Positions 45,812 through 63,058 of a DNA stretch of 64,000 nucleotides are shown here, piece after piece; position 1 is the stretch's first letter; each line of letters starts with the position of its first letter. The notes under the pieces were generated by a model, which saw only the letters and a list, made by a program, of their open reading frames with translations, ran no database searches and was not told where the DNA came from. Where the stretch lies: positions 2,790,001-2,854,000 of the forward strand of contig NZ_AP025018.1 of NCBI RefSeq assembly GCF_019977735.1, written 5' to 3'. This stretch comes from Calothrix sp. PCC 7716. GTDB taxonomy: Bacteria; Cyanobacteriota; Cyanobacteriia; Cyanobacteriales; Nostocaceae. The position numbers and the translations under genes are program-made.

Positions 45812-46894
45812 ATGACTGCAACCTTACAACGTCGCGATAGCGGAAACGTATGGGAACGGTTCTGCAACTGGGTAACCAGCACCGAAAACCGCATTTATGT
45901 AGGTTGGTTCGGAGTGTTGATGATTCCTACACTGTTGTCAGCAACCATCTGCTTCATCATTGCATTTGTAGCAGCACCTCCCGTTGATATCGATGGTATC
46001 CGCGAGCCAGTAGCTGGTTCATTGATTTACGGAAACAACATCATTTCTGGTGCAGTTGTTCCTTCTTCAAACGCTATCGGTTTACACTTCTACCCAATCT
46101 GGGAAGCAGCTTCTTTAGATGAGTGGTTGTATAACGGTGGTCCTTACCAGTTGGTAGTATTCCACTTCTTGATTGGTTGCTTCGCTTACTTAGGGCGCCA
46201 GTGGGAATTATCTTACCGCTTAGGAATGCGTCCTTGGATTTGCGTTGCTTACTCTGCTCCTTTGGCATCTGCAACTGCAGTATTCTTGATTTACCCCATC
46301 GGTCAAGGTTCGTTCTCTGATGGTATGCCTTTAGGTATCTCTGGAACATTCAACTTCATGTTGGTATTCCAAGCAGAACACAATATTTTGATGCACCCCT
46401 TCCACCAATTAGGTGTAGCTGGTGTATTCGGTGGTAGCTTATTCTGTGCAATGCACGGTTCTTTGGTGACATCTTCCTTGGTTCGTGAAACCAGCGAAAC
46501 TGAAAGCCAAAACTATGGTTACAAGTTCGGTCAAGAAGAAGAAACCTACAACATCGTTGCAGCACACGGTTACTTCGGTCGCTTGATTTTCCAATACGCT
46601 TCATTCAACAACAGCCGTTCCTTGCACTTCTTCTTAGGTGCTTGGCCTGTTGTATGTATCTGGTTGACAGCATTGGGTATTTCCACAATGGCTTTCAACT
46701 TAAACGGTTTCAACTTTAACCAATCAGTACTTGATAGCGAAGGTCGTGTTATCAATACTTGGGCTGACATTCTTAACCGTGCTAACCTCGGTATGGAAGT
46801 AATGCACGAGCGTAACGCTCACAACTTCCCTCTTGACCTTGCTAGCGGTAACGCTGCTCCTGTAGCTATTGCGGCGCCTGCTATTAACGGTTAA
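45812..46894 (+). CDS. psbA: Photosystem II D1 protein
   Basis: The protein has 360 residues and is complete. It carries Tyr161, Asp170, Glu189, His190, His198, and the C-terminal His332, Glu333, Asp342 and Ala344 that bind the Mn cluster. Position 130 is Gln, as in the low-light D1:1 form, rather than Glu. The C-terminal extension [16 protein letters not shown] is the part cut by CtpA. D1 is a reaction-centre subunit in the thylakoid membrane with rapid turnover. A terminator follows, and the end of a second psbA is found at 47129. Confidence 0.98.
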
Positions 46895-47702: not shown

Positions 47703-48281
47703 ATGCCAATTCGCAAAACACAATTTAAATCAGGAAACTACTATCACATCTATAATCGAGGAAACAACCGTCAAAAAATATTCTTTCAAAATCAAAACTA
47801 CTCGTACTTCCAACGGCTCATCAAAAAACACCTAATAGACAATCAAGTCGAAATAATAGCATATTGCTTAATGCCCAACCACTACCACCTATTAATTCAC
47901 CTCAACAACGATAATCTATCAGAATTAATGCAAGCATTTGCCTTATCATACACCAAAGCCATCAACAACCGCTTCAACAGAGTCGGTTCACTCTTCCAAG
48001 GGCCATTTCAATCCATCCACGTAGATACAGACGAATACTTGTTACACCTATCACGTTACATTCATCTAAATCCAGTCGGCGCCAACTTAGTCAAAAAACC
48101 TCAAGATTGGATATACTCAAGTTACCTAGACTACATCATCCCGAAAAAAGATAGCTTTGTTAAAAAAGATAAGATATTGGAATACTTTGATTTAGAATAT
48201 CTAGCACCCGAAGATTCTTACCGCTCTTTCGTCGAGTCTCAGCAGGAAGAAGAAAGTTTTAAACATTTGATTTTAGAATAG
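47703..48281 (+). CDS. REP-associated tyrosine transposase (RAYT, Y1 HUH family)
   Basis: This 192-residue protein begins YYHIYNRGNNRQKIFFQ, a RAYT hallmark. It has the HUH pair in YCLMPNHYHLLIH (His60, His62), SYTKAINNRFNRVGSLFQGPF and YLLHLSRYIHLNPV. WIYSSYLDY near 137-145 probably contains the nucleophilic Tyr. RAYTs are single-copy, domesticated relatives of IS200/IS605 transposases that act on REP palindromes. Matching palindromes lie on both sides here, and inverted tandem copies at 48.65-49.13 kb. All catalytic residues seem intact. Confidence 0.9.
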   Translation: MPIRKTQFKSGNYYHIYNRGNNRQKIFFQNQNYSYFQRLIKKHLIDNQVEIIAYCLMPNHYHLLIHLNNDNLSELMQAFALSYTKAINNRFNRVGSLFQGPFQSIHVDTDEYLLHLSRYIHLNPVGANLVKKPQDWIYSSYLDYIIPKKDSFVKKDKILEYFDLEYLAPEDSYRSFVESQQEEESFKHLILE

Positions 48282-49340: not shown

Positions 49341-52300
49341 ATGTATCGGTACTATCTGCATCCACAGCATTTTGACGAGTTAGTTCGAGATAGTGGTATT
49401 GATTCGGATATCGCGAGCTTAAATTTCAGTTCACTTCAAGATAATGGCGCCTATGATTACTTGTTGATTTCTGAGCAGGTTCCGCGTACTAATACGGGGA
49501 TGGTCAGAAATAGCTGGTTGCAGCGTTACGCACATGTTAGTTCTGGGGGTTGGTGGTGTTCGGGACTTGACCCGTTGAATAATTGGGAAAGTATGGAGTG
49601 GGGTTGTTTTAAGCCAAATCAACCTCGACTGAATCAGAAGGGTAAAAATATTAAGTATGAGCATCCTCCAGGAACAGCTACGCGCGTATTTTGCCTGCGT
49701 GTGACATTGCCTGTGTGGGAGAAAGTTTGTCAACGTTATGGTATAGATTTACCATGCAATATATATATTAATCAAAGTGGTGAAGCTGAGGGTTTTTGGC
49801 AGTGGGTGATTGAGCGTTCGATACCAGTTATTATTTGTGAGGGTGTTAAAAAAGCTGCTGCTTTATTATCGTTAGGTTATGTTGCAATTGCGATACCTGG
49901 AATTACTAGTGGTTATCGTGTTAATAAGAATGAATTTGGTAAAGTTATTAGTCGGCAGCTTATACCAGATTTAGCAGCTTTTACACTTACAGTCAGGCGC
50001 CAATTTTACATTTGTTTCGATTTTGAGACAGAACCGAGAAAAATTGCTGCTGTTGATAATGCAATTTCTCAGCTTGGTTTGCTGTTTCAATCTCAAAATT
50101 GTGCAGTCCAGGTGATGAAGTTACCTGGTAAAGAAAAAGGTGTTGATGAATTTATTGTTGAGCAAGGCGCCTCGGCCGTCGATAATATATATAGTCACAG
50201 TTTAGATTTAGAGACATATTTAGCTCTTTGTAAACCTCATGCTCAATTAACGGTTTCAGCTGCACTGACAGTAAATCGTCGTTATTTAGGTGAAATACCT
50301 CTGCCAAATTCTGGTTTAGTTGGTGTAAAGTCAGCAAAAGGAACGGGAAAAACAACTGCACTACAAAAAGTAATCGAATCGGCAAAAGTAAATAACTGTC
50401 CCATTTTATTAATCACCCACCGAATCCAACTTGGAAAATTCCTCTGCGACAAAATCGGTATCGACTGGGGATTCGGAGAACATACAACCACGTATTCAGC
50501 ACACCCAACACTCAAAACTCAGCACTCAGCACTTAGCACTCATCACTCTCTTGGTTTGTGTGTAGATTCAATTTGGAAACTTAATGCGAATGATTGGGCA
50601 GGTGGGATAATAATTTTAGACGAAGTTGAACAGTCTTTATCACACTTGCTTCATAGTACTACTTGTAAAGATAAGCGCGTCAAGCTTCTCAAAGCATTCC
50701 AGGAACTTATTAATATTGTGTTAACAACAGGTGGTTTAGTAATTGCCCAAGATGCTGACTTATCAGATATTTCCCTGGAGTACATACAGCAGTTAGCAGG
50801 AATAGAAATAACTCCTTGGGTGCTAGAAAATGAATGGCAACCTGAGAAAGGTTGGGATATCTCGTTTTATGATTCTCCTAACCCTACTCCCTTAATTCAA
50901 CAGCTTGAACTTGACTTAATAGCTGGACGTAAATGTTATGTTACTACCGATAGTCGTGCAGGACGATATAGTTGTGAAACTATTGAACGTTATTTAAGAG
51001 AACGTTTAGAGCGTTTATATAGAATATCTCCTAAATCATTGGTGATAAGCAGCAGCACAACTAATACTCCTGGACATGCAGCAGTAGACTTTGCTGCTGA
51101 AATCAATCAGAAAGTTACAGATTACGATTTAGTGTTAGTGACACCTAGTTTAGGAACAGGTGTTAGTATCGACGTTCAGCACTTTGACCGTGTTTACGGA
51201 ATTTTTCAAGGTGTAATTCCTGACTCAGAGGCAAGACAAGCATTATCACGTGTTCGTGACTCTGTACCACGTGCAGTATGGTGTGCAAAACGAGGAATTG
51301 GAATAATTGGCAGTGGTAGCACTAATTATCGATTACTATCACAGTGGTATCAGGAAAACCAAAAGGAAAATTTAGCCTTACTAAGTCCCTTACACCATGT
51401 TGATGTAGACTTACCGTTGGTATATGACCCTATACATTTACGAACTTGGGCAAAACTATCAGCACGTATAAATGCTTCGATTTGTATGTACCGTCAGTCA
51501 ATGAAAGATGGTTTAATCGCAGATGGTCATCAAATATGGTTACGCAGCAATGCTGTACATCAAAATATTATCCGCGATTTACGTCATGCTTTTTTGGCAA
51601 CAGACCCTGAAGACTTGCCAACTCGTCGCAGATTAATGTTAGAAATTGTTAAAGTCCAAAAAGACTGGCGCCATTCTCGGCAAAAGTCTAAAGAAATTAG
51701 CTGTAGTATTAAGAAAATTAAACGCCAAAATCAAATAGTTGGCGCCAATGCTGTTGCAAACGCCAAAGATATAGATAAAGTAGAGTACGAGAAAATATCA
51801 GCCAAACACTCACATAGCGAACAAGAACGTCATCAAATAGATAAATATACACTTCGACAACGCTATGGTGTCCCCGTAACCCCAGAATTAAAGATGCGTG
51901 ATGACCAGGGGTATTATGCTCAACTGTTAATACACTATCATCTCACACACGAAAGCGAATATTTTAGACTCAAAGACAAACAAGAATGGTATCAACAGTT
52001 ATTATCAGGTGACGGAAAAGTGTTTTTACCCGACTTAAAAACTTACACATTAAAAGTTGAAGCATTACGCGCGTTAGGAATGCAACAATTTTTAGAGTCA
52101 GGACGCACCTTTACAGAACATGAAACAGATTTACTAAGACTAAAAAATACAGTATCGCAGTGTAGTCAACATATCAAGCGAGTTTTGGGTATTAACTTGG
52201 TTAAAGATAACGACCAAGTTCCAACCATAAAAATACTCAGTCGATTATTAAATTTGCTAGGTTTAAAATTAAAGCGAGCAAACGGAATTTATCAAATTGA

Positions 52301-52469
52301 TTCGGTAACACTCAACGATGGTAGGGAGGAGATATTTACTATTTGGCAACAACGTGACGAGTTAATGTTGGTAAACACAAAGGTAAATTTTGATGTCGAT
52401 AAAAATCACGTTAATTCTTCTCCAACTCGCTCAGAAAGTAGTTTACCAATGGATAAAGTGCCGTTTTAA
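49341..52469 (+). CDS. CyRepA1-type plasmid replication protein
   Basis: This 1042-residue protein matches the large cyanobacterial replication proteins annotated as CyRepA1. A DUF3854/TOPRIM-like part has IPVIICEGVKKAAALLSLGYVAIAIPG (about 155-181) and FYICFDFETEPRK. A superfamily-type helicase follows: Walker A GVKSAKGTGKTTALQ (about 327-341), HRIQLGKFL, Walker B IIILDEVEQSLSH, and LVTPSLGTGVSIDVQHFDRVYG with QALSRVRD as late helicase motifs. Residues about 388-404 (TLKTQHSALSTHHS) are encoded by CACTCAG heptamer repeats inserted in frame between helicase motifs. It is surrounded by chromosomal genes, so it suggests an integrated plasmid. Confidence 0.82.
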   Translation: MYRYYLHPQHFDELVRDSGIDSDIASLNFSSLQDNGAYDYLLISEQVPRTNTGMVRNSWLQRYAHVSSGGWWCSGLDPLNNWESMEWGCFKPNQPRLNQKGKNIKYEHPPGTATRVFCLRVTLPVWEKVCQRYGIDLPCNIYINQSGEAEGFWQWVIERSIPVIICEGVKKAAALLSLGYVAIAIPGITSGYRVNKNEFGKVISRQLIPDLAAFTLTVRRQFYICFDFETEPRKIAAVDNAISQLGLLFQSQNCAVQVMKLPGKEKGVDEFIVEQGASAVDNIYSHSLDLETYLALCKPHAQLTVSAALTVNRRYLGEIPLPNSGLVGVKSAKGTGKTTALQKVIESAKVNNCPILLITHRIQLGKFLCDKIGIDWGFGEHTTTYSAHPTLKTQHSALSTHHSLGLCVDSIWKLNANDWAGGIIILDEVEQSLSHLLHSTTCKDKRVKLLKAFQELINIVLTTGGLVIAQDADLSDISLEYIQQLAGIEITPWVLENEWQPEKGWDISFYDSPNPTPLIQQLELDLIAGRKCYVTTDSRAGRYSCETIERYLRERLERLYRISPKSLVISSSTTNTPGHAAVDFAAEINQKVTDYDLVLVTPSLGTGVSIDVQHFDRVYGIFQGVIPDSEARQALSRVRDSVPRAVWCAKRGIGIIGSGSTNYRLLSQWYQENQKENLALLSPLHHVDVDLPLVYDPIHLRTWAKLSARINASICMYRQSMKDGLIADGHQIWLRSNAVHQNIIRDLRHAFLATDPEDLPTRRRLMLEIVKVQKDWRHSRQKSKEISCSIKKIKRQNQIVGANAVANAKDIDKVEYEKISAKHSHSEQERHQIDKYTLRQRYGVPVTPELKMRDDQGYYAQLLIHYHLTHESEYFRLKDKQEWYQQLLSGDGKVFLPDLKTYTLKVEALRALGMQQFLESGRTFTEHETDLLRLKNTVSQCSQHIKRVLGINLVKDNDQVPTIKILSRLLNLLGLKLKRANGIYQIDSVTLNDGREEIFTIWQQRDELMLVNTKVNFDVDKNHVNSSPTRSESSLPMDKVPF

Positions 52470-53940: not shown

Positions 53941-54213
53941 TTGCAAGTTGAAGAACTTTTTATTCCTGATGGAGAAGGAATAGATGACCTTTATGGCGAT
54001 GTTAATATATATGCTTATCGCGCGCGGCACATAGATGATTTACCAGAGTATACATCTAAACTGGAACAACTTAATATCCTTGAAAACGAAGTCTGGATAA
54101 TTTCAGCATCTGGCTTTTGTTATGAAGTCCAGCCTATAATTATTTTTGGTGATGAACTAAGGCAAATAATTAAAGAAGCCCAGAAGTTCGTAAAATGTGA
54201 TAGGTTGAATTAG
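53941..54213 (+). CDS. Hypothetical acidic protein
   Basis: The 90-residue frame starts with TTG: VEELFIPDGEGIDDLYGDVNIYAYRA, then VWIISASGFCYEVQPIIIFGDELRQIIKEA. It looks like a small alpha/beta protein. I do not recognise it. Lack of an ATG and of a good ribosome binding site leaves the start, and possibly an upstream part at 53838, in doubt. Confidence 0.45.
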   Translation: MQVEELFIPDGEGIDDLYGDVNIYAYRARHIDDLPEYTSKLEQLNILENEVWIISASGFCYEVQPIIIFGDELRQIIKEAQKFVKCDRLN

Positions 54214-54311
54214 ACTGGCGCCGTGATAACAAATAGGACAATTTATACCTTATCCGACTTTTCAAACATCCTCTAAAACTTTATTCTCGCTCCTTGGAGC
54301 GAAAATCGAAT

Positions 54312-56495
54312 ATGACTGATAATCACAATATTCATATTGGTAGCGGTAATTATAATGAGCGTGTTGAAGGCGACTATATCCAAGGAAATTACAATGCACC
54401 TTTGATTCACGGTGGTAGTGGTAATAATATCACGTTTAACAGAATACAGGTGCCTGATTGGGAACGGTTAAAGTTAAATCCCCCAAAAAATCTTCAGTTT
54501 CAAGGCTCTGCCAACTTTGTAGGAAGACAGTATGAACTGACCTTACTGCGTGATAGGTTGCAACTCAGAAGTGTTTACGCCATAACTGCTGTTGCTGGTA
54601 TGGGTGGCGTTGGTAAAACTGAACTGGCGATTCAATTTGTATTGCAGCATGAAGCGGACTACCCTGGTGGTATATGTTGGTTATCAGCTAGAGAATCAGA
54701 TTTAGCTGCTTCTATTGTGCAGTTTGCCCAACTTCATATGAATTTGGAAGTCCCACAACAGGATGGACGTGGAAATTCCCTGAGTCTTACTAAACAGGTA
54801 GAGTGGTGCTGGCAGCATTGGCAACCATCATCCGGACTGGTACTAATCGTACTAGATGATGTTATGGATGTGGGGAATTATCGGCTCTGGTTGCCTTCAT
54901 ATAACCGTTTCCGCGTATTAATGACAACACGGTTGCGGAATTTAGACCCTAATATTGAAGAGATTTCCTTAGATATGCTGTTACCAGAAGAAGCTTTGCA
55001 ATTATTGATAGCATTGGTGGGTCAAAAACGAGTAGAAAAGGAATACCAAACTGCCCAGCAATTATGTGAATGGTTAGGTTATCTCCCGTTAGGTTTGGAA
55101 TTAGTGGGACGATATGTGGCGAAAAAACCTCCTAACTACAAGTTAGCCCTCTTGTTGCAGCGACTCAATGAACAACGACTAGAAAATGAAGCTCTTAACT
55201 CTGAGCAGCAGTCATTGCAACAAACCCTTAGCACAGCACAGCAAGGAGTTTTAGCAGCATTTGAATTAAGCTGGCTTGAGCTTTCTCCTACAACACAGCA
55301 AGTCGCTGCATTGTTAAGCTTGTTTGCACCAAATATCTTTGTATGGCAATGGGTGGAGTCTGCATGTGAATTGCTTAATTGGAGTGCAGCTAATGTTGAA
55401 ACAGCGAACGAGCAACTATACGCACTTCATTTGATTCAATCAGTAGAGGATACATCTAGTGAGTATAAAATAAAAATTCATCCATTAATTCGGGAGTTTC
55501 TGAAAGTTAAATTAGCAGCATTACCACAAGCATTGAATTTGAAACACGCTTTTGTAGAGGTAATGGTAGCGCAAGCAAAACTTATCCCCTATTTAATAAC
55601 GGCTGAGTTGATTAATTCAGTCAAAGATGTTATTCCACATTTAGTAGAAGTGGCACAATATTTGACTGAGGCTATTAGTGATGAAAATTTAATTTTGGTT
55701 TTTTCTCGTATTGGTAGATTTTATCAAGGGCAGGGTTCGTATGCTTTAGCAGAACCTTGGTATATTCAGTGCGCCTTCATTGTACGAAAACGACTAGGAG
55801 AGGAGCATCCAGATGTTGCCTCTAGCTTTAACAACCTAGCTTTACTCTACTTACACCAAGCTCGGTATGCGGAAGCTGAACCCTTGTTTCTGCAAGCATT
55901 GGCATTAGAGAGGCGCCTTAACGGAGAGGAGCATCAATCTGTTGCCTTTAGTTTCAACCACCTAGCTCATCTCTACTTAAACCAAGCTCGGTATGCGGAA
56001 GCTGAACCCTTGCTTCTGCAAGCACTGGCACTCAACAGGCGCCTCAACGGAGAGGAGCATCCATCTGTTTCCAGTAGCCTCGATAGTCTGGCTAGTCTTT
56101 ACTTACACCAAGCTCGGTACGCGGAAGCCGAACCCTTGTTTCTGCAAGCACTGGCATTAGAGAGGCGCCTGCATAGAGAGGAGCATACAGCTGTTGCCGC
56201 TATCCTCCAAAACTTGGCTAGTCTCTACTTAAAGCAAGCTCGATACGCGGAAGCTGAACCCTTGTTTCAGCAAGCACTGGCACTTAATAGGCGCCTGCTT
56301 TCCAAGGAGCATCCATTTATTGCCGATAGCCTCCAGAACCTGGCTAGTCTCTATTCAAAGCAAGCTCGGTACTCAGAAGCTGAACCCTTGTATCAGCAAG
56401 CATTGGAAATTGCTTCAAAAAGCTTAGGGGTAGATCATCCTACCACAGCCAATATCCGTGAAAATTTAAAATCCTTGCGCGATAATTATGCTTAA
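54312..56495 (+). CDS. NB-ARC STAND NTPase with TPR sensor
   Basis: The protein has 727 residues from ATG 54312; TTG 54294 is six codons upstream. The motif HIGSGNYNERVEGDYIQGNY lies at about 6-26. An NB-ARC domain follows: FVGRQYE, P-loop GMGGVGKTE near 96-104, Walker B LIVLDDV near 178-184, LMTTR, and GYLPLGLELVG. A winged-helix region leads to about six kinesin-light-chain-type TPRs (ARYAEAEPLFLQALALERRL) from about 480 to the end. Four repeats are nearly identical at DNA level with 126-bp period. STAND NTPases of this layout sense a ligand with the TPRs and oligomerise. Its stop abuts the next gene. Probably the sensor of an NLR-like defence cassette. Confidence 0.88.
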   Translation: MTDNHNIHIGSGNYNERVEGDYIQGNYNAPLIHGGSGNNITFNRIQVPDWERLKLNPPKNLQFQGSANFVGRQYELTLLRDRLQLRSVYAITAVAGMGGVGKTELAIQFVLQHEADYPGGICWLSARESDLAASIVQFAQLHMNLEVPQQDGRGNSLSLTKQVEWCWQHWQPSSGLVLIVLDDVMDVGNYRLWLPSYNRFRVLMTTRLRNLDPNIEEISLDMLLPEEALQLLIALVGQKRVEKEYQTAQQLCEWLGYLPLGLELVGRYVAKKPPNYKLALLLQRLNEQRLENEALNSEQQSLQQTLSTAQQGVLAAFELSWLELSPTTQQVAALLSLFAPNIFVWQWVESACELLNWSAANVETANEQLYALHLIQSVEDTSSEYKIKIHPLIREFLKVKLAALPQALNLKHAFVEVMVAQAKLIPYLITAELINSVKDVIPHLVEVAQYLTEAISDENLILVFSRIGRFYQGQGSYALAEPWYIQCAFIVRKRLGEEHPDVASSFNNLALLYLHQARYAEAEPLFLQALALERRLNGEEHQSVAFSFNHLAHLYLNQARYAEAEPLLLQALALNRRLNGEEHPSVSSSLDSLASLYLHQARYAEAEPLFLQALALERRLHREEHTAVAAILQNLASLYLKQARYAEAEPLFQQALALNRRLLSKEHPFIADSLQNLASLYSKQARYSEAEPLYQQALEIASKSLGVDHPTTANIRENLKSLRDNYA

Positions 56496-56527
56496 TGATA
56501 TCGAGCGAAACTTACCAAGGTAAAATT

Positions 56528-58603
56528 ATGACTGATTCGGAGGAGAGTCCCAATCGCAATATCTCGATTAACGAAGGTAATTATAATGAGCGTATTGAGG
56601 GAGATTATGTAGAAGAGAATTATTATAACGTTTCATTTAATTTTCGGCGACAGAATAAAAATTATGCTAATATTCGACGTAAATTATTACAAATTGTCAA
56701 TGAGCGAATTGAAGCTATAATAAACAGTTCGCTTAACAACAGGGTTTACATGGTTCTAGATATGGAGCAAGACCCGGAACAGATAGAAGCCCCTTTTTTG
56801 GCAGAAGTTAAGGTAAATTTTCAACATGAAACTCATTTAAATAATACAGAAATTATTAATGTTTTTGACGACTCAGAAGTGGCTGGTAGGTTACTAATTT
56901 TAGGACAGCCAGGTGCAGGAAAAACGACGATGCTTTATAAACTGGCTCTTGAGTTAGTTAAGCGCACGTTGGCTAATAGTAATCATCCGATACCAGTAAT
57001 ATTATCTTTATCTAGTTGGAAGAATGATAATCAAAGTATCAAGGATTGGTTAGTCAGTGAGCTTAAAGATAGATATGGAGTGCGAAAAGATATTGGTAAA
57101 GAGCTAGTAGAGAATCAAGAAATTATACCTTTACTTGATGGGTTGGATGAGCTGGCGGCAGAACGTCAAGAAAGTTGTGTTATTAAAATTAATGAATTTA
57201 TACAGCCTAGTAATTGGACTAATCCTGTAGTTGTTTGTAGTCGCCTATTTGAATACGAGCGTCATCAAGCTTTATTACAGCTAAATAATTCTATAGAATT
57301 ATGTCCTCTCTCTACTGAACAGATTCATCAATATTTACTTCATACTGGTCAATTGCAATTATGGGACAGTATTAGTAATGATGCTGATTTAAGCGAATTA
57401 GCCAAAACACCACTTCTATTAAATATTATTGTACTGTCTGCTAGTGAAATTTCAATACAAACATGGCAGCAATTTAAATCAAGAGAGGAACGATTAAGTT
57501 ATTTATTTGATACTTATATCTCAGAAATGTTTAGGCGCCCTTATAAAGGTAAACAACCGAAGCAGGAAAATACTAAACGTTGGTTATGTTGGTTGGCACA
57601 GCGGTTAATTGAGTCAAGTACTACTGAATTTTTGATTGAAAGAATGCAGCCATCTTGGTTGGTTAAGAAGCGATTCCAGGTTGTATATAATTCGATTGTG
57701 TGGGGAGTTACATTCGGGCTGATTTATGGGTTGATAAGAGGGCTGAGTTATGGGCTGATTTATGAGCTGATTTATTATGGGCTGATTTGTGGGGTGATAG
57801 GAGGGCTAATTTATGGGCTAATTGATGGGGTGATTTTTAAAATATTAGAAGAGAGGATTGAACTCAACAACATAGTATTTTCAAAAAGGCTAATTTATGG
57901 GCTGATTTATGGGCTGATTTATGGGTGGCGTTTTGGGTGGAATTTTGGGTTATCTTCTGGGCTGTTTTATGTGCTATTCTCTGGGCTGATTACTGACGAG
58001 ATTAAAACAATTGAAACTCTAAAATTTTCTTTGAAAAAGTATTTAAATGGGCTGCGTTTGATGCTGATAAGAGGGCTGCGTTTGATGCTGATACCCGGGC
58101 TGATGTTGTGGCTGATATCCGGGCTAAGTCAGCTAAGTTATACGCTGATGTTGTTGCTGATAATCGGGCTGATAGTCGGGCTATTTTTTGGAATTTATGG
58201 GTTAGAAATTCAATATAAAAAGATTCCTAATCAAGGCATTCACCAATCTATTATTAACACTATTATTATATCAACAGTAACTTGTTTATTACCTACGTTG
58301 TTAATCTTTATAATTAGAACTAGCCAGCCAAATATTGATTTCAAACAAACTTTAATTTCTAGTTTAGTGTCAGGATTATGTTTCGGGTTATTTATTGGAA
58401 TACCTAAAAGTGGAATACCTGCTATTAAACATTTTATTTTGCGTATAATTCTCTGGTTTAGCGGCTGTATCCCCTGGAATTATGCTAAGTTCCTCAACTA
58501 CTCTACTAACCGCCTATTTCTGCAACGAGTAGGTGGTGGTTATCGCTTCATTCATGACCTGCTACGCCAACATTTTGCTTCTTCTTATACTCGTAATGTA
58601 TAA
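56528..58603 (+). CDS. NACHT NTPase with glycine-rich multipass membrane region
   Basis: The protein has 691 residues from ATG 56528. ATG 56495 would overlap the previous stop, but the later start matches the N-termini of the sibling proteins. The motif INEGNYNERIEGDYVEENYY lies at about 14-33. A NACHT domain follows: RLLILGQPGAGKTTM near 121-135, LLDGLDELAAER near 202-213, VVVCSR, and TPLLLNII. From about 390 to 620 the chain is a series of Gly/Leu/Ile segments (GLIYGLIRGLSYGLIY) that look membrane-embedded. It ends with RLFLQRVGGGYRFIHDLLRQHF. The NTPase could gate a pore; that is inference. Confidence 0.87.
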   Translation: MTDSEESPNRNISINEGNYNERIEGDYVEENYYNVSFNFRRQNKNYANIRRKLLQIVNERIEAIINSSLNNRVYMVLDMEQDPEQIEAPFLAEVKVNFQHETHLNNTEIINVFDDSEVAGRLLILGQPGAGKTTMLYKLALELVKRTLANSNHPIPVILSLSSWKNDNQSIKDWLVSELKDRYGVRKDIGKELVENQEIIPLLDGLDELAAERQESCVIKINEFIQPSNWTNPVVVCSRLFEYERHQALLQLNNSIELCPLSTEQIHQYLLHTGQLQLWDSISNDADLSELAKTPLLLNIIVLSASEISIQTWQQFKSREERLSYLFDTYISEMFRRPYKGKQPKQENTKRWLCWLAQRLIESSTTEFLIERMQPSWLVKKRFQVVYNSIVWGVTFGLIYGLIRGLSYGLIYELIYYGLICGVIGGLIYGLIDGVIFKILEERIELNNIVFSKRLIYGLIYGLIYGWRFGWNFGLSSGLFYVLFSGLITDEIKTIETLKFSLKKYLNGLRLMLIRGLRLMLIPGLMLWLISGLSQLSYTLMLLLIIGLIVGLFFGIYGLEIQYKKIPNQGIHQSIINTIIISTVTCLLPTLLIFIIRTSQPNIDFKQTLISSLVSGLCFGLFIGIPKSGIPAIKHFILRIILWFSGCIPWNYAKFLNYSTNRLFLQRVGGGYRFIHDLLRQHFASSYTRNV

Positions 58604-59088
58604 TACGCGCGCTTGCTCCATTCGGGATATTGTTTAATAAAGGTAACGGCGCTCACCCTTGAGGTTACTTACTCCAAATAAAATTTAATGCTCGTAACTA
58701 TAATGCTTACTTTAACAATTTAAATTTTAATTCAGTTAGACATTATGCACATATTTTAATAAACTACACTAGACTAAAGTTAAGTTGTTAGCGCAGTAAT
58801 TATTAAAAATTGTAAATCAGGGAGTATTATAAGTGTCTGCTGTTATCTCAGTAAACACCCTATATAGCTATTCGTAAAAAATTTACATAAATTTATAGCG
58901 GATTACTGGAATCATATGTTGTACATTTGTAATTTTATAGGGATATTATTTTCTCTCTAACTACTATCCGTATAAGTGATGCACATTAGTATCGTAGATA
59001 ACACTCAAATCATGCAGACCGCAGCTTGTGCCATCTTTGAGGTGACTCGGAGCCAAGTAGTTTCTTCATGCAAGGAGCCAAATTAAAC
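58604..59088. other. Spacer upstream of the CHAT gene
   Basis: This AT-rich spacer of about 485 bases has no gene I would support. It separates the two-gene NB-ARC/NACHT unit from the CHAT/NACHT unit, so it probably holds a second promoter. AAGGAG at 59072-59077 is the ribosome binding site for the CHAT gene. Confidence 0.5.
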
Positions 59089-60045
59089 ATGAAGAAGATT
59101 TTGATTTTATTAGCAAATCCTATAGATACGAATAAGCTGCGCTTAGATGAAGAAATGCGGGAAGTTCAATCTGCGCTCTTGCGTTCCAGAAGCCGTGAGC
59201 AGTTTGAACTTATATATAGAACAGCAGTTCGTATTGATGATTTACGTCGCGCGCTATTAGATAACGAACCAACTGTAGTACATTTTTCTGGTCACGGCGC
59301 CGGAACTGATGGCATAGCGTTAGAGGATAACTATGGTGGCACCCAACTAGTTAGTACAGAATCACTAAGCAATCTATTTGAGCTATTTAAAGCTAAAATT
59401 GAGTGTGTTTTACTTAATGCATGTTACTCAGAAACACAGGCTCTTGCAATTTATCACCATATTGATTGTGTGATTGGTATGGAACGTGCTGTCAGTGATA
59501 AAGCTGCTATTCATTTTTCTACAGCATTTTATGACGCTCTTGGCGCCGGGAGAAGCTATAAAGAAGCTTACGATTTTGGTTGTAACAATATTGACCTCAA
59601 TAGCATACCAGAGTCTTTAACCCCAAAAATCAAAATTAAAAATAACTCTAAAACCTTATTTCCGCTCACAGAGCAAAAATCTAATATGACTGGTAATCGC
59701 AATATTCACATTGGTAGCGGTAATTATAACGAGCGTATTGAAGGTAATTATATTCAAGGGAATTATTACGATGGCACCAAGCAACAAAACCTTGCTGACG
59801 CTGCTGCGGAAATTCAAAAGCTTTTAGAACAGTTAGACAAAACCTATCCAACTGATACGACCTTGGGCAAGATGCAAGTAGCTGCGGAAACTATCAAGGC
59901 TATTGAAAATAATCCTACTTTAGCACAAAGAGTAACTAGTGCTTTAAAAGCTGGTGGTGTTCAAGCTTTAGCTCAACTGCTTAATCATCCTGCTGCTAGC
60001 TTTGCCATTGGTGCATTAGAGGATTGGCAGAAAACCAAAGGATAA
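59089..60045 (+). CDS. CHAT (caspase-like) protease with shared motif
   Basis: The protein has 318 residues. Start 59089 is chosen because AAGGAG lies 11 bases upstream; ATG 59068 is upstream of that site. A CHAT domain occupies about 1-175: KILILLANPIDTNKLRLDEE, VVHFSGHG with His69, and VLLNACYS with Cys112. These are the catalytic dyad of clan CD proteases. The motif NIHIGSGNYNERIEGNYIQG follows at 205-224. A helical C-terminal domain (ADAAAEIQKLLEQLDKTYP ... ALKAGGVQALAQLLNHP) ends the chain. CHAT proteases cut partner proteins in bacterial immune systems. The motif after the protease suggests recruitment by the neighbouring NTPases. Confidence 0.87.
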   Translation: MKKILILLANPIDTNKLRLDEEMREVQSALLRSRSREQFELIYRTAVRIDDLRRALLDNEPTVVHFSGHGAGTDGIALEDNYGGTQLVSTESLSNLFELFKAKIECVLLNACYSETQALAIYHHIDCVIGMERAVSDKAAIHFSTAFYDALGAGRSYKEAYDFGCNNIDLNSIPESLTPKIKIKNNSKTLFPLTEQKSNMTGNRNIHIGSGNYNERIEGNYIQGNYYDGTKQQNLADAAAEIQKLLEQLDKTYPTDTTLGKMQVAAETIKAIENNPTLAQRVTSALKAGGVQALAQLLNHPAASFAIGALEDWQKTKG

Positions 60046-60111
60046 AAATGGTTTTATGAATCTAAAACGTTTACTTTCCTTGACATTGAATAAATTTACT
60101 AAGATGAAATT

Positions 60112-62391
60112 ATGGCAGATAATAAGGCGCCTGACAATCAACGTATCGATATTAACGAAGGCAATTATAACGAGCGCATTGAGGGAGATTATATCCAAGG
60201 AAGAAACAACTTTCTTAACAATAATTTTGTACTGTTTGGACGCTCAGGTAGTAATGAGTCATCAGCAAAGCATTCTCGTCTGAGACAAGATTTATTAAAA
60301 CAGGTAAATTCAGAAGTTGAAATCAGAATCAACAGTTCTCTTCATAACCGGGTTTATATTGTTCTAGATACAGAACAAAACCCAGAACAGATTGAATTAC
60401 CTTGGTCAAGTGAAATCAAAGTTAGTACTCAACCTAAAACTAAATTAAATAATACAGATATTGTTAACATTTTTGACCGAGAGGATATTGCAGGAAGATT
60501 ACTAATTTTAGGACAACCAGGCGCCGGAAAAACTACCATGCTCCTTAAACTGGCAGAAGAATTAGTAAAACGGGCTGAAAACAATTTAGAACATCCTGTC
60601 CCATTACTATTTTCTTTATCTTCTTGGAAAAATGATAATCAAAATATTGAAGATTGGTTAGTTGACCAGTTTAAAGACAAATATGGGCTGCGAAAAGATA
60701 TTGGCAAACAATGGATAAAGAATCAGCAAATCATACCTCTTCTAGATGGTCTAGATGAACTAGCGGGAGAACGTCAAGAAAGATGCGTTACTAAAATTAA
60801 CGATTTTCTAAATCCGATAAATTGGACTAATCCTGTAGTTGTTTGTAGTCGAATTCAAGAATATCAAAATTATACAACTTTATTACAGTTGAATAATAGT
60901 CTCGAATTATTTCCTTTTACGACCCAACAGATTCATCAATATTTACAAAGCACAGATAACCTACAATTATGGGACAGTATTAGTCATGATGATGATTTAA
61001 GCCAATTAGCCCAAACACCACTTCTATTAAATATTGTTGTCCTCTCTGCTGAAGAACTATCAATACAAACATGGCAGCAGTTCAAATCTTCTGAAGAACG
61101 ACTAAGCTATTTATTTGATGTTTATATCAGTAGAATGCTTAAACGTCCTTACAAGGATAAACAACTTAAGCTAGAAAATACGAGAGCGTGGTTAAGTTGG
61201 TTGGCACATCGGTTAATTGAAGAAAGTACCACTGAGTTTTTGATTGAAAAAATGCAGCCTGATTGGTTGAGCAATAAATTTCAAAAAAATATTTATAGTG
61301 TAATAGTATGGGGAGTTATAGGTGCGCTGATTTGTGGGCTGATTGTTGGGCTGATTGTTGGGCTGATTGTTGGGCTGATTGTTGGGCTGACAGAAGGGCT
61401 GATTGTTGGGCTGATTGTTGGGCTGATTTTTGGGCTGACAGAAGGGCTGATTGGAGAGCTAATAGAAAATAAAATAAAAAGTATTCAATTAATTAATCAT
61501 CTAATAAATTTTAGGATAACTATAAAATGGCTGATTATTGGGCTGACAGGAGGGCTAATTATTGGGCTGACAGGAGGGCTGACAGAAAGGCTGACAGAAG
61601 GGCTGATAGCAGGCCTGATTTATGGGCTGATAGCAGGGCTGATAGCAGGGCTGATAGGAGGTGAAATTCAACCCGTTGAAAACCTCAAATTTTCTTTTGA
61701 GAAGTCTTTAAATGGGCTGATTTGTGGGCTGATGTTTGGGCTGATTTGTGGGCTGATGCTTGCGCTGAAAGAAGGGCTGATTGTTGGGCTGATTGTTGGG
61801 CTGATAGCAGGGCTGATTTTTGGATTTGATGGGATAGAATTAGAAAATAAAACTATTCCTAATCAAGGAATTAAACAATCAGTTATTAATACTATAATTA
61901 TATCAACAGTAACTTTTTTATTGGCTTCATTATTAATATTTGTATTTGTAATTCCAAGAGTTACACCACCGAACGTTAGTCTAAACCAAAATTTAATTGA
62001 TAGCTTAGTAAAGGGATTGTGTGCTGGACTACTTATTGGAATACCTAGAAGTGGAACACCAGCTATTAAACACTTTGTTTTGCGCGTAATTCTCTGGTCT
62101 AACGGTTATATCCCTTGGAATTATGCTAAATTTCTCAACTATTGCACCAATCGGTTATTTTTGCAACGAGTCGGTGGTAGTTATCGCTTCATCCATGACC
62201 TGCTACGCCAACACTTTGCTAATTCTTATACTCAAAGAAGTCTAGCACCTGTTCAAGAAATTCCAGTAGAAATTTCTCAACGAGTTAAAAATCACATTGT
62301 CTGTACCAATACCAATTGTAGTCATAATAATCCAGCTAATCTCAACTTCTGTAATAAATGCGGAACTCCATTAATTAAACCACATACTTAA
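60112..62391 (+). CDS. NACHT NTPase with GLIVGLIV membrane repeats and zinc ribbon
   Basis: The protein has 759 residues and is a paralogue of the one at 56528. The motif INEGNYNERIEGDYIQGRNN lies at about 14-33. NACHT: RLLILGQPGAGKTTM near 131-145, LLDGLDELAGER near 212-223, VVVCSR. From about 400 to 600 there are glycine-spaced hydrophobic repeats (GLIVGLIVGLIVGLTEG) encoded by a 12-bp tandem repeat GGGCTGATTGTT. RLFLQRVGGSYRFIHDLLRQHF follows. The chain ends with a zinc ribbon CTNTNCSHNNP..NFCNKCGTPL that its sibling lacks. The number of repeats differs between the two paralogues. Confidence 0.87.
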   Translation: MADNKAPDNQRIDINEGNYNERIEGDYIQGRNNFLNNNFVLFGRSGSNESSAKHSRLRQDLLKQVNSEVEIRINSSLHNRVYIVLDTEQNPEQIELPWSSEIKVSTQPKTKLNNTDIVNIFDREDIAGRLLILGQPGAGKTTMLLKLAEELVKRAENNLEHPVPLLFSLSSWKNDNQNIEDWLVDQFKDKYGLRKDIGKQWIKNQQIIPLLDGLDELAGERQERCVTKINDFLNPINWTNPVVVCSRIQEYQNYTTLLQLNNSLELFPFTTQQIHQYLQSTDNLQLWDSISHDDDLSQLAQTPLLLNIVVLSAEELSIQTWQQFKSSEERLSYLFDVYISRMLKRPYKDKQLKLENTRAWLSWLAHRLIEESTTEFLIEKMQPDWLSNKFQKNIYSVIVWGVIGALICGLIVGLIVGLIVGLIVGLTEGLIVGLIVGLIFGLTEGLIGELIENKIKSIQLINHLINFRITIKWLIIGLTGGLIIGLTGGLTERLTEGLIAGLIYGLIAGLIAGLIGGEIQPVENLKFSFEKSLNGLICGLMFGLICGLMLALKEGLIVGLIVGLIAGLIFGFDGIELENKTIPNQGIKQSVINTIIISTVTFLLASLLIFVFVIPRVTPPNVSLNQNLIDSLVKGLCAGLLIGIPRSGTPAIKHFVLRVILWSNGYIPWNYAKFLNYCTNRLFLQRVGGSYRFIHDLLRQHFANSYTQRSLAPVQEIPVEISQRVKNHIVCTNTNCSHNNPANLNFCNKCGTPLIKPHT

Positions 62392-62428: not shown

Positions 62429-63058
62429 CTAAATAGTTAGTTCGCAATTAAATAAATCAAGTGCGTGCTGGCATTGCATAAATATATAGTTAAGCGCTGC
62501 AAATAAGCCATCTATATTAGATAATGTGTATGATTTTATTTCTCTGGTGTAGATATTGCCCTTTAATTTACCAAATTGCCAAAATTGTCCGTTGGATACA
62601 ATTCCATATATATCTTGTTCTAAATTTTGATTAATCTTTTGAATTGCTACCATTTCAGCTAAACACTGTCCCCACCCTTTAATAAAATCATCGCGTTTAG
62701 CTTCAACGGCAATTAAGAAGGGTTTTTCAAAAACTTCTTTACCTAATGGTGATTTATTAGCCAGAATATAATTAGGTATTCCAGTAAGATTTACATCATA
62801 TGTAAGGGTTTTATGACTCCATAGTGTAAAACTTTCTCGGTAATTACGGTAGACTTCTCTCAAGATTGGAAAAACTACAGCTTCACAAATAGCATACTCT
62901 GAGTCTTCAAAAGTAAATTCTCGCAGCGAAAAGTTTAATTCTTCTCTAAAAGTTTCTCTAATATCAAATTTAGTTTCAACAACAAAACTTGCTTCAGATG
63001 ATGTTATATTAAATTCCTGTAGAACTTGAGCGATGTTTCTGTATGACTCGAATGACAT
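62429..63058 (-). CDS. Hypothetical protein with PD-(D/E)XK-like core
   Basis: The protein has 209 residues. The middle reads LTYDVNLTGIPNYILA (Asp88) and FLIAVEAKRDDFIKGWGQCLAEM (Glu119-x-Lys121). Together these match the D...ExK core and following helix of restriction-endonuclease-fold proteins. The N-terminus is helical (FESYRNIAQVLQEFNIT). Similar stand-alone proteins are common in cyanobacteria, without known role. It converges with the NACHT gene, 37 bases apart. Nuclease activity is not certain since such folds are sometimes inactive. Confidence 0.65.
   Translation of the reverse strand: MSFESYRNIAQVLQEFNITSSEASFVVETKFDIRETFREELNFSLREFTFEDSEYAICEAVVFPILREVYRNYRESFTLWSHKTLTYDVNLTGIPNYILANKSPLGKEVFEKPFLIAVEAKRDDFIKGWGQCLAEMVAIQKINQNLEQDIYGIVSNGQFWQFGKLKGNIYTREIKSYTLSNIDGLFAALNYIFMQCQHALDLFNCELTI

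Follow-up and report, generated by a model that had tools for sequence, protein, structure and literature searches.

How three STAND proteins and one putative protease come to share a single short peptide is the question raised by a locus of Calothrix sp. PCC 7716. Within the 64,000-nucleotide stretch analysed here (the window; contig NZ_AP025018.1, positions 2,790,001 to 2,854,000), positions 54312-62391 hold four same-strand genes that encode, according to the list of open reading frames (ORFs) and Pfam, an NB-ARC/TPR protein, a NACHT protein (NACHT1), a CHAT protein and a second NACHT protein (NACHT2). The motif GNYNER(I/V)EG(D/N)Y is present in all four. Judged from sequence, this motif very likely couples its carriers, and the cassette is likely to be an immune relay built on a homotypic motif, of the amyloid-signalling (BASS-like) type. 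That the motif itself assembles in an amyloid manner is, by analogy, moderately probable.

The shared motif and its carriers

The motif is N-terminal in the three STAND proteins (IHIGSGNYNERVEGDYIQGNY at 54330..54392 in the NB-ARC/TPR protein, ISINEGNYNERIEGDYVEENY at 56561..56623 in NACHT1 and IDINEGNYNERIEGDYIQGRN at 60145..60207 in NACHT2; all features of the cassette lie on the plus strand). In the CHAT protein it occupies residues 213-233 of 325, where IHIGSGNYNERIEGNYIQGNY (59704..59766) sits in the linker after the CHAT domain. AlphaFold2 (AF2) predicts the motif to be disordered in both modelled proteins: residues 1-49 of NACHT2, and the first 34 residues, motif included, of a 125-aa piece covering the motif and C-terminus of the CHAT protein, have pLDDT values below 50.

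A profile built from the four copies recovers them by construction; its informative result is that no fifth site was found at E<=1 in the 12.37 Mb host genome, and the same profile does detect diverged copies in other genomes. A degenerate DNA pattern run over the whole host genome matched the four cassette sites and one other, in whose neighbourhood no motif protein of this kind was found. Because no fifth site was detected, we regard the motif as private to the cassette rather than as a general tag in this genome. When any two copies are compared across their 21 codons, 3-7 codons differ synonymously and 2-7 non-synonymously, so none is a recent DNA copy of another. These results bear on whether the motif could instead be a tag used generally in cyanobacteria, or a gene-conversion segment, whose carriers are functionally unlinked. 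Its presence in many cyanobacteria and in varied protein types would suit a tag, as would the fact that the non-synonymous differences equal the synonymous ones outside the invariant core. However, the host genome has the motif only in the cassette, the synonymous differences argue against gene conversion, and the motif class co-varies with that of the neighbouring gene far above controls on both sides (see below). This explanation is already disfavoured, and we give it hardly any weight.

The first-pass annotation of this locus had read its gene content correctly, with three STAND NTPases, one CHAT protein and the common motif in each (Pfam returns NB-ARC, NACHT, CHAT and NACHT). The P-loops (GMGGVGKT, GQPGAGKTT) and Walker B sequences (LVLIVLDDV, IIPLLDGLDE) whose presence it had noted can be read directly in the STAND translations. 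The NB-ARC/TPR protein (54312..56495; the ORF opens at 54294, with the ATG at 54312) matches Pfam NB-ARC at 8.2e-18 and TPR_12 at 2.6e-62, and is a candidate soluble receptor. In the NACHT proteins the P-loop, Walker B and NBD-HD1-WHD fold were all found.

The CHAT protein is recognised by Pfam (PF12770, 3.8e-11, 43.4 bits against a cut-off of 24), by PADLOC (chat, 7.5e-19) and by a match at 3.3e-16 to PDB 8tl0_A, a CHAT domain-containing protein. Its ORF opens at 59068, and the probable start at 59089 gives a protein of 318 aa (59089..60045). A length of 318-319 aa is shared by 17 of the 20 next-best homologues, which supports this start, and with it the numbering His69/Cys112 proposed earlier is right. 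His69 (in GHG; codon at 59293..59295) and Cys112 (in NAC; codon at 59422..59424) are conserved in the homologue alignment, both residues falling in the class of at least 90% conservation among the aligned homologues of 290-390 aa drawn from the 120 best listed, out of 3886. With its fold given by profile and its His and Cys conserved, the protein has the predicted make-up of a CHAT peptidase. It is quite probably the effector of the cassette, and the earlier picture of a CHAT cutter and STAND switches seems the most sensible reading of the sequences.

Three features had been overlooked: 12-bp coding repeats in the NACHT genes, a gap between the NACHT1 and CHAT genes, and an 85-aa four-helix C-terminal domain (CTD; 59788..60042) that follows the CHAT motif and is conserved in relatives. 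No Pfam family above cut-off and no Pfam EAD matched the CTD. In the AF2 model of the 125-aa piece it forms four helices with mean pLDDT of 91-98 per ten-residue block over residues 41-120; the death fold, by comparison, has six. Run against 148 genomes of the order, a CTD profile detected the domain in 73. The host genome holds six strong copies and one weak fragment, and the linkers of the five other strong copies are unlike GNYNER. It also contains 79 CHAT matches. At one of its loci (L124, G000:C1:6518000-6532000; loci from our searches are cited by such numbers) two adjacent CTD proteins have one common linker, NNNQGAN.ANFANQVKDNARQQANQYN, near a CHAT protein that lacks the CTD; this pair is possibly a further motif channel in the same genome.

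Recurrence of the module and pairing of motif classes

Across the order, the GNYNE motif was detected in 42 of 388 genomes (E<=0.01). Thirty-five named loci came out of a contig scan, with Pelatocladus, Spirirestis, Hassallia, Westiellopsis, Nostoc, Hyella, Rhizonema and Calothrix among their sources. Of these loci, 24 have two or more motif ORFs by profile, eight have one and three have none. What recurs is a two-gene module: a variable effector or nothing, followed by the motif and the 85-aa domain, and then an NLR that carries the motif N-terminally. The motif proteins divide mostly into 43 with the CTD (77-95 residues follow the motif in 40) and 36 with an N-terminal motif, which in 32 starts at residue 1; 11 fit neither type. 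Within the named loci, 22 of 31 CTD-type proteins have, no more than 250 bp downstream (median distance 74), a P-loop protein whose N-terminal part bears a GNY-type motif. Among the nine unpaired ones, L093 has only a short motif ORF, and L106 and L111 lie near a contig end or on short contigs. The 43 CTD-type proteins, the kind that forms the first member of the pair, comprise 18 pentapeptide-repeat proteins (called by regular expression), 14 bare motif-domain units, 5 CHAT proteins and 6 others; they combine the named and extra loci and contain a few duplicates. CHAT is paired with NACHT at L088 (where the NACHT ORF has only 250 aa), L089 and L092, and with NB-ARC/TPR at L069; NB-ARC/TPR partners of the module occur at L069, L096 and L073. 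A GNYNE protein at L108:11202-12620 combines TRADD-like_N (PF20694) with pentapeptide repeats and has the motif in the position of an EAD.

Relatives of the cassette proteins carry other sequences at the same place. Among the best 120 CHAT homologues listed, differing linkers accompany the same CHAT domain in those of 290-390 aa, many of them before the same CTD: GNYNER; GDYRETS..DQGSYVEGNYYNN; SGISQ.VSGG..YGGM.A.QGNNNQQ; SQSFTIS..QFSGVQIGQ; and GVGVNKGTINTDKLAGTINE. The N-termini of NACHT2 relatives (best 120 of 3041 listed) include GNYNER, KKVSNNDLRNAQFGGGFINAENVNAQRIGGDI, GDYRE...DQ.TYVEGDYYN, IRQQADNS..GGMQAAIGD and QGNQNRVVQGDNNK, as well as PF19955 (one source names the protein EAD1-containing) and PF13676 (TIR), and many have none of these or something else. 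In adjacent genes the motif classes match class by class, and at least eight classes, plus EAD-like domains, occur in matched neighbours. The RHIM core is (I/V)-Q-(I/V)-G. At L256 and L258 a CHAT protein and the adjacent NLR have RHIM-like cores (AIQLGQIG, AIMLGNFG / AIQFGHIG, AIIFGSIG) in the GNYNER slot, the L256 pair consisting of DNAIQLGQIGRADNI at the CHAT C-terminus and DYAIQFGHIGHVEAI at the NLR N-terminus; at L257 a helical EAD-like domain links the CHAT pair. We chose the names RHIM-like and EAD-like ourselves. A further matched channel combines CHAT tails of NRSVSIGGSVTGSAIQTGDSNTANINFQ with NLR N-termini of the DRSIKIEKDAISSAIISGDGNKVVIYQ type (L260, L264, L266-L268, L270, L276). 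Two small proteins of 136-137 aa (L308:4715-5122 and L311:6230-6640), for which Pfam gave no family, carry a C-terminal GRDQFN-type motif matched by the N-terminus of the next NACHT; guessing from their size and hydrophobic start, they may be Bell-type partners.

We measured this correspondence from both sides. On the receptor side, the N-terminal segment of each NACHT protein was compared with the non-NACHT ORFs lying up to 3 kb away and with the sets of ORFs at loci of other classes, class-mates (N-terminal score >=60) being excluded from the nulls. The sample comprised 181 loci (L068-L087, L132, L169-L328, without L133-L168 and the named loci L088-L122) with 60 NACHT-core ORFs. Once identical N-termini, N-termini below 25 aa and ORFs that overlap a larger one had been dropped, 50 were kept, including the window's two NACHTs. 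The protein's own locus ranked in the top 5% for 42 of the 50 and was best of all for 30. Controls using four core segments, the C-terminal 60 residues and the shuffled N-terminus reached the top 5% in 1, 3, 3, 5, 3 and 3 of the 50 cases and beat all other loci in 0 or 1. For the loci from the NACHT-core search alone (L289-L328) the figure was 25 of 31. By class, the hits were GNYNE 12/12 (one of which, L171, is really YVEG-type and was taken in by the regular expression), KKVS 6/6, QGNQNR 3/3, GRD 3/3, IGTNEGQ 2/2, GQQAAIG 2/2, GRDQFN 2/2, QQGIN 4/6, YVEG 0/1 and other 8/13.

On the effector side, the match between a CHAT protein and the N-terminus of its P-loop neighbour ranked in the top 5% for 26 of 33 and above every locus of another class for 24; internal and C-terminal segments of the same neighbours gave 0, 3 and 2 of 33. 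This sample was drawn from 45 loci (L069, L124, L130-L132 and L249-L288, the last being 40 loci hand-picked for longer C-terminal parts) with 43 CHAT tails, of which the 33 with a P-loop ORF within 3 kb were kept, the window's CHAT among them. Further sampling took 80 of the listed CTD sites and, from the NACHT-core search, 40 mostly top-ranking loci new to the set. At the level of sequence, the effector-side test supports the relay. Taken together with the confinement of the motif to the cassette, the co-variation upholds the earlier proposal that the motif links its partners; the objection raised with it, that the motif might be a general tag, failed within this genome. The expectation that the four genes would co-occur elsewhere fared less well: pairs of a motif-CTD protein and a motif-NLR recur, but the full set does not among the loci examined.

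The nature of the coupling is less certain. The motif could act as a plain non-amyloid homotypic adaptor (for instance a small beta-arch dimer or strand-exchange tag) or as a docking tag for a third protein, in which case the CTD or the STAND wheel would oligomerise and the same wiring would work by other physics. It speaks for such an adaptor that the CTD is a confidently folded domain kept together with the motif, and that the slot also takes longer helical EAD-like domains (the L257 CHAT pair, the L297 pair and the NACHT relatives with PF19955); because the slot accepts them, templated amyloid is not required by the layout. Conversely, the RHIM-like occupants at L256 and L258 (AIQLGQIG, AIIFGSIGQVG) are of a type for which the available parts of the literature give an amyloid precedent, and short, disordered motifs rich in G, N, Q and Y better suit the amyloid class. 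We therefore consider a non-amyloid adaptor somewhat unlikely, and prefer amyloid-type assembly.

The membrane NACHT proteins and the surroundings of the cassette

NACHT1 (56495..58603; alternative ATG at 56528; Pfam NACHT 2.2e-12) and NACHT2 (60112..62391; Pfam NACHT 3.8e-12) are 59% identical. Hydropathy gives eight hydrophobic stretches in NACHT1 (residues 396-638), seven in NACHT2, and none in the NB-ARC/TPR or CHAT protein. In both NACHT genes, 12-bp in-frame coding minisatellites (GGGCTGATNNNN) encode GLIx units of the membrane helices. They make up a little under half of the NACHT1 transmembrane region (57680..58408; arrays at 57716-57836 and 57888-57991, plus shorter ones) and of the NACHT2 bundle (residues 389-663, 61276..62100; arrays at 61326-61453, 61529-61661 and 61713-61823). 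Across 61 aligned proteins the membrane stretch ranges from 165 to 438 residues in length, and it presumably grows and shrinks through repeat slippage. NACHT2 also has a weak C-terminal zinc ribbon (62302..62373; Zn_Ribbon_1 E 0.0056, 4Cys_prefix_kin 9e-4, both under cut-off).

The winged-helix region is the part of NLRs that moves on activation. In the AF2 model of NACHT2 (pTM 0.75, mean pLDDT 78.9), eight long helices occupy residues 389-663, after which come two further helices with a beta hairpin between them (671-705). VIA alignments to NLRP3, NOD2 and NLRC4 (rows 1-16) span about 55-710 of the model with 315-350 residues aligned, the NLRP3 range being for example 134-537, and Avs4 (8dgf) matches the NTPase part. 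These alignments are defined by their first and last residues, and we infer that the stretch they skip is the membrane bundle, lying inside the winged-helix domain.

This geometry invites the alternative that the NACHT proteins are the executioners, with ATP-driven movement of the winged helix opening the glycine-rich bundle and with CHAT or the NB-ARC/TPR protein as activator. The GLI-rich bundle of about eight helices lies where NLRs move on activation, the NLRP3 alignment leaves only about 320 residues aligned over model residues 55-710, and NACHT1 and NACHT2 lack the TPR sensor of some relatives (P0125, P0142). Yet their motif is at the N-terminus, the position expected of a receptor; relatives pair with separate genes, including the small proteins with C-terminal motifs at L308 and L311; and some relatives carry PF13676 (TIR) or PF00069 (kinase). 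In these last relatives the membrane NACHT seems to be the switch and the fused domain the effector. We hold executioner NACHTs to be rather improbable. With the motif in the receptor position in all three STAND proteins, the NACHTs are more likely membrane receptors. The first-pass annotation had proposed that they act at the membrane; a part there as receptors now looks more probable than one as executioners.

A PD-(D/E)xK nuclease-like protein lies directly downstream on the minus strand, convergent with the cassette (62429-63058; PADLOC PD_DExK 1.3e-46). Immediately upstream of the NB-ARC gene is a 90-aa ORF (53941-54213) for which Pfam gave no family. Further upstream, an IS200-type transposase (47703-48281) and a large DUF3854 protein (49341-52469) hint at a mobile stretch. 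A photosynthetic reaction-centre (Photo_RC) gene is located nearby at 45812-46894.

A proposed relay and its relation to known systems

The N-terminal motifs of the STAND proteins, the matching motif on the protease, the pairing by class and the RHIM-like and EAD-like occupants of the slot lead us to suggest homotypic recruitment, most likely amyloid-templated. In the relay that we propose, the NB-ARC/TPR protein would detect an invader or stress product, and the two NACHTs, embedded in the membrane, would react to a membrane signal or some other cue. Oligomerisation powered by ATP, of the kind seen in NLR wheels, would gather the disordered motifs, which could then fold into a beta-type, probably amyloid, seed. 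This seed would template the CHAT motif, cluster the CHAT domains and so switch on Cys112/His69 proteolysis, with the helical CTD serving as solubiliser, dimeriser or second contact. Cleavage would lead to cell death or dormancy and limit spread along the filament. One protease would in this way serve three receptors, and the motif class of each relay would insulate it from the cell's remaining CHAT and NLR systems.

Several findings weigh against this proposal. The AF2 model of the CTD gave no confident PDB match, and the predicted disorder of the motif is compatible with any linear motif. With CHAT in only 5 of the 43 motif-CTD proteins, the module is not protease-specific, and the other loci examined contain pairs only, never the exact four-gene set. 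In the co-variation tests, 8 of 50 NACHTs and 7 of 33 CHAT proteins had no match at the 5% level; moreover, the 42 receptor hits include four that resemble paralogues of a long neighbouring domain (L300, L310, L312, L320), two long EAD-like domains (L297, L314) and two doubtful cases (L305, L316). The NB-ARC/TPR and NACHT1 ORFs abut and 66 bp separate CHAT from NACHT2, but the interval between NACHT1 and CHAT is 464 bp, or 485 bp to the probable CHAT start at 59089, and because of this gap a single transcript is uncertain. Finally, at L113 the motif-CTD unit is fused to a response regulator and could be an input rather than an output. That fusion, together with those to pentapeptide repeats, suggests internal regulation and would suit a developmental regulator, for example of heterocyst or filament behaviour, instead of a defence system; CHAT is also named after HetF, the acronym being expanded in this way in the part of PMC7889193 available to us. 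An NLR architecture and a frequent exchange of partners, with a patchy occurrence in 42 of 388 genomes, better suit a conflict system, however, so that we judge development quite unlikely and, by analogy, a part of the relay in defence or cell death likely.

A broader possibility, which we put forward tentatively and would not yet rely on, is a modular prion-like wiring code in which interchangeable motif classes occupy one CHAT/CTD slot and one receptor slot to form insulated channels, with the membrane NLRs as an unrecorded class whose bundle, built up in part by the in-frame 12-bp repeats, lies in the winged-helix domain. If so, one soluble and two membrane-embedded NLRs would share a channel to a single caspase-like protease, and a bundle placed in the lever of NLR activation would let the state of the membrane gate the ATPase switch. 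Amyloid-type NLR signalling would then be a code, in which motif swaps serve as natural experiments that predict receptor-effector partners. The locus bears on the question of templated assembly as a signalling mode of bacterial NLRs, and it directs attention to NLRs embedded in the membranes of filamentous bacteria.

At first pass, this combination of genes had not been assigned to any nameable system. We find that its layout is that of the NLR-associated amyloid motifs (BASS) and of the EAD principle. BASS signalosomes are reportedly the subject of Dyrka et al. 2020. As far as the accessible parts of the sources describe it, BASS consists of a short motif common to an NLR N-terminus and an effector encoded by the adjacent gene; the effectors include CHAT, and the hosts are mainly filamentous bacteria, cyanobacteria among them (PMC7889193, PMC8086366, PMC9815663, PMC12261475). 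The cassette likewise has its NLR and effector genes next to each other, the same short (20-40 aa) motif in both proteins and at the NLR N-terminus, and NACHT relatives that pair with small partners bearing the motif at the C-terminus (L308, L311). It departs from BASS in having three receptors for one effector. Also against our proposal, the effector motif, C-terminal in the BASS descriptions accessible to us, is internal here, with about 92 residues including the four-helix domain after it; in the sister pairs L256, L258, L308 and L311 it is C-terminal on the effector side. Because the effector motif is not C-terminal, we liken the cassette to BASS and do not file it as a member. The string GNYNE was not found in the relevant open-access literature, and the motif may belong to one of the BASS1-10 classes.

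EAD and TRADD-N systems are the subject of Kaur et al. 2020 and 2021 (PMC7159879, PMC8195603), whose available portions describe a homotypic adaptor on an NTPase and on an effector of the same locus, with the closest similarity between the copies of neighbours. In relatives of the cassette the slot is likewise taken by EAD-like domains, and the GNYNE protein at L108 has TRADD-like_N and pentapeptides; in contrast, the cassette adaptor is a short, probably disordered motif. No Pfam EAD matched the four cassette proteins, although Pfam may not hold all EADs.

For the effector, the nearest structure, 8tl0, is a SAVED-CHAT protein, dimeric and stacked according to the accessible text of PMC11417357, and TPR-CHAT (Csx29) of CRISPR systems provides, in the excerpts at hand, a precedent for a sensor-driven CHAT protease. 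As in both, the CHAT domain of the cassette is fused to a part that would gather protomers or be triggered by a sensor; unlike them, it has no SAVED or TPR, and its trigger would be the motif it has in common with the NLRs. For the receptors, bNACHT and Avs are antiphage STAND proteins in the part of PMC12169576 available. The cassette NACHTs resemble these in their NLR-type NACHT/STAND switch, with matches to NLRP3, NOD2, NLRC4 and, in the NTPase part, Avs4, and differ from them in having no fused effector, a bundle apparently within the winged-helix domain and an N-terminal signalling motif. The principle of the cassette is therefore already known; what it adds is the motif string, the unnamed helical domain, three receptors for one protease and the build of the membrane NLRs.

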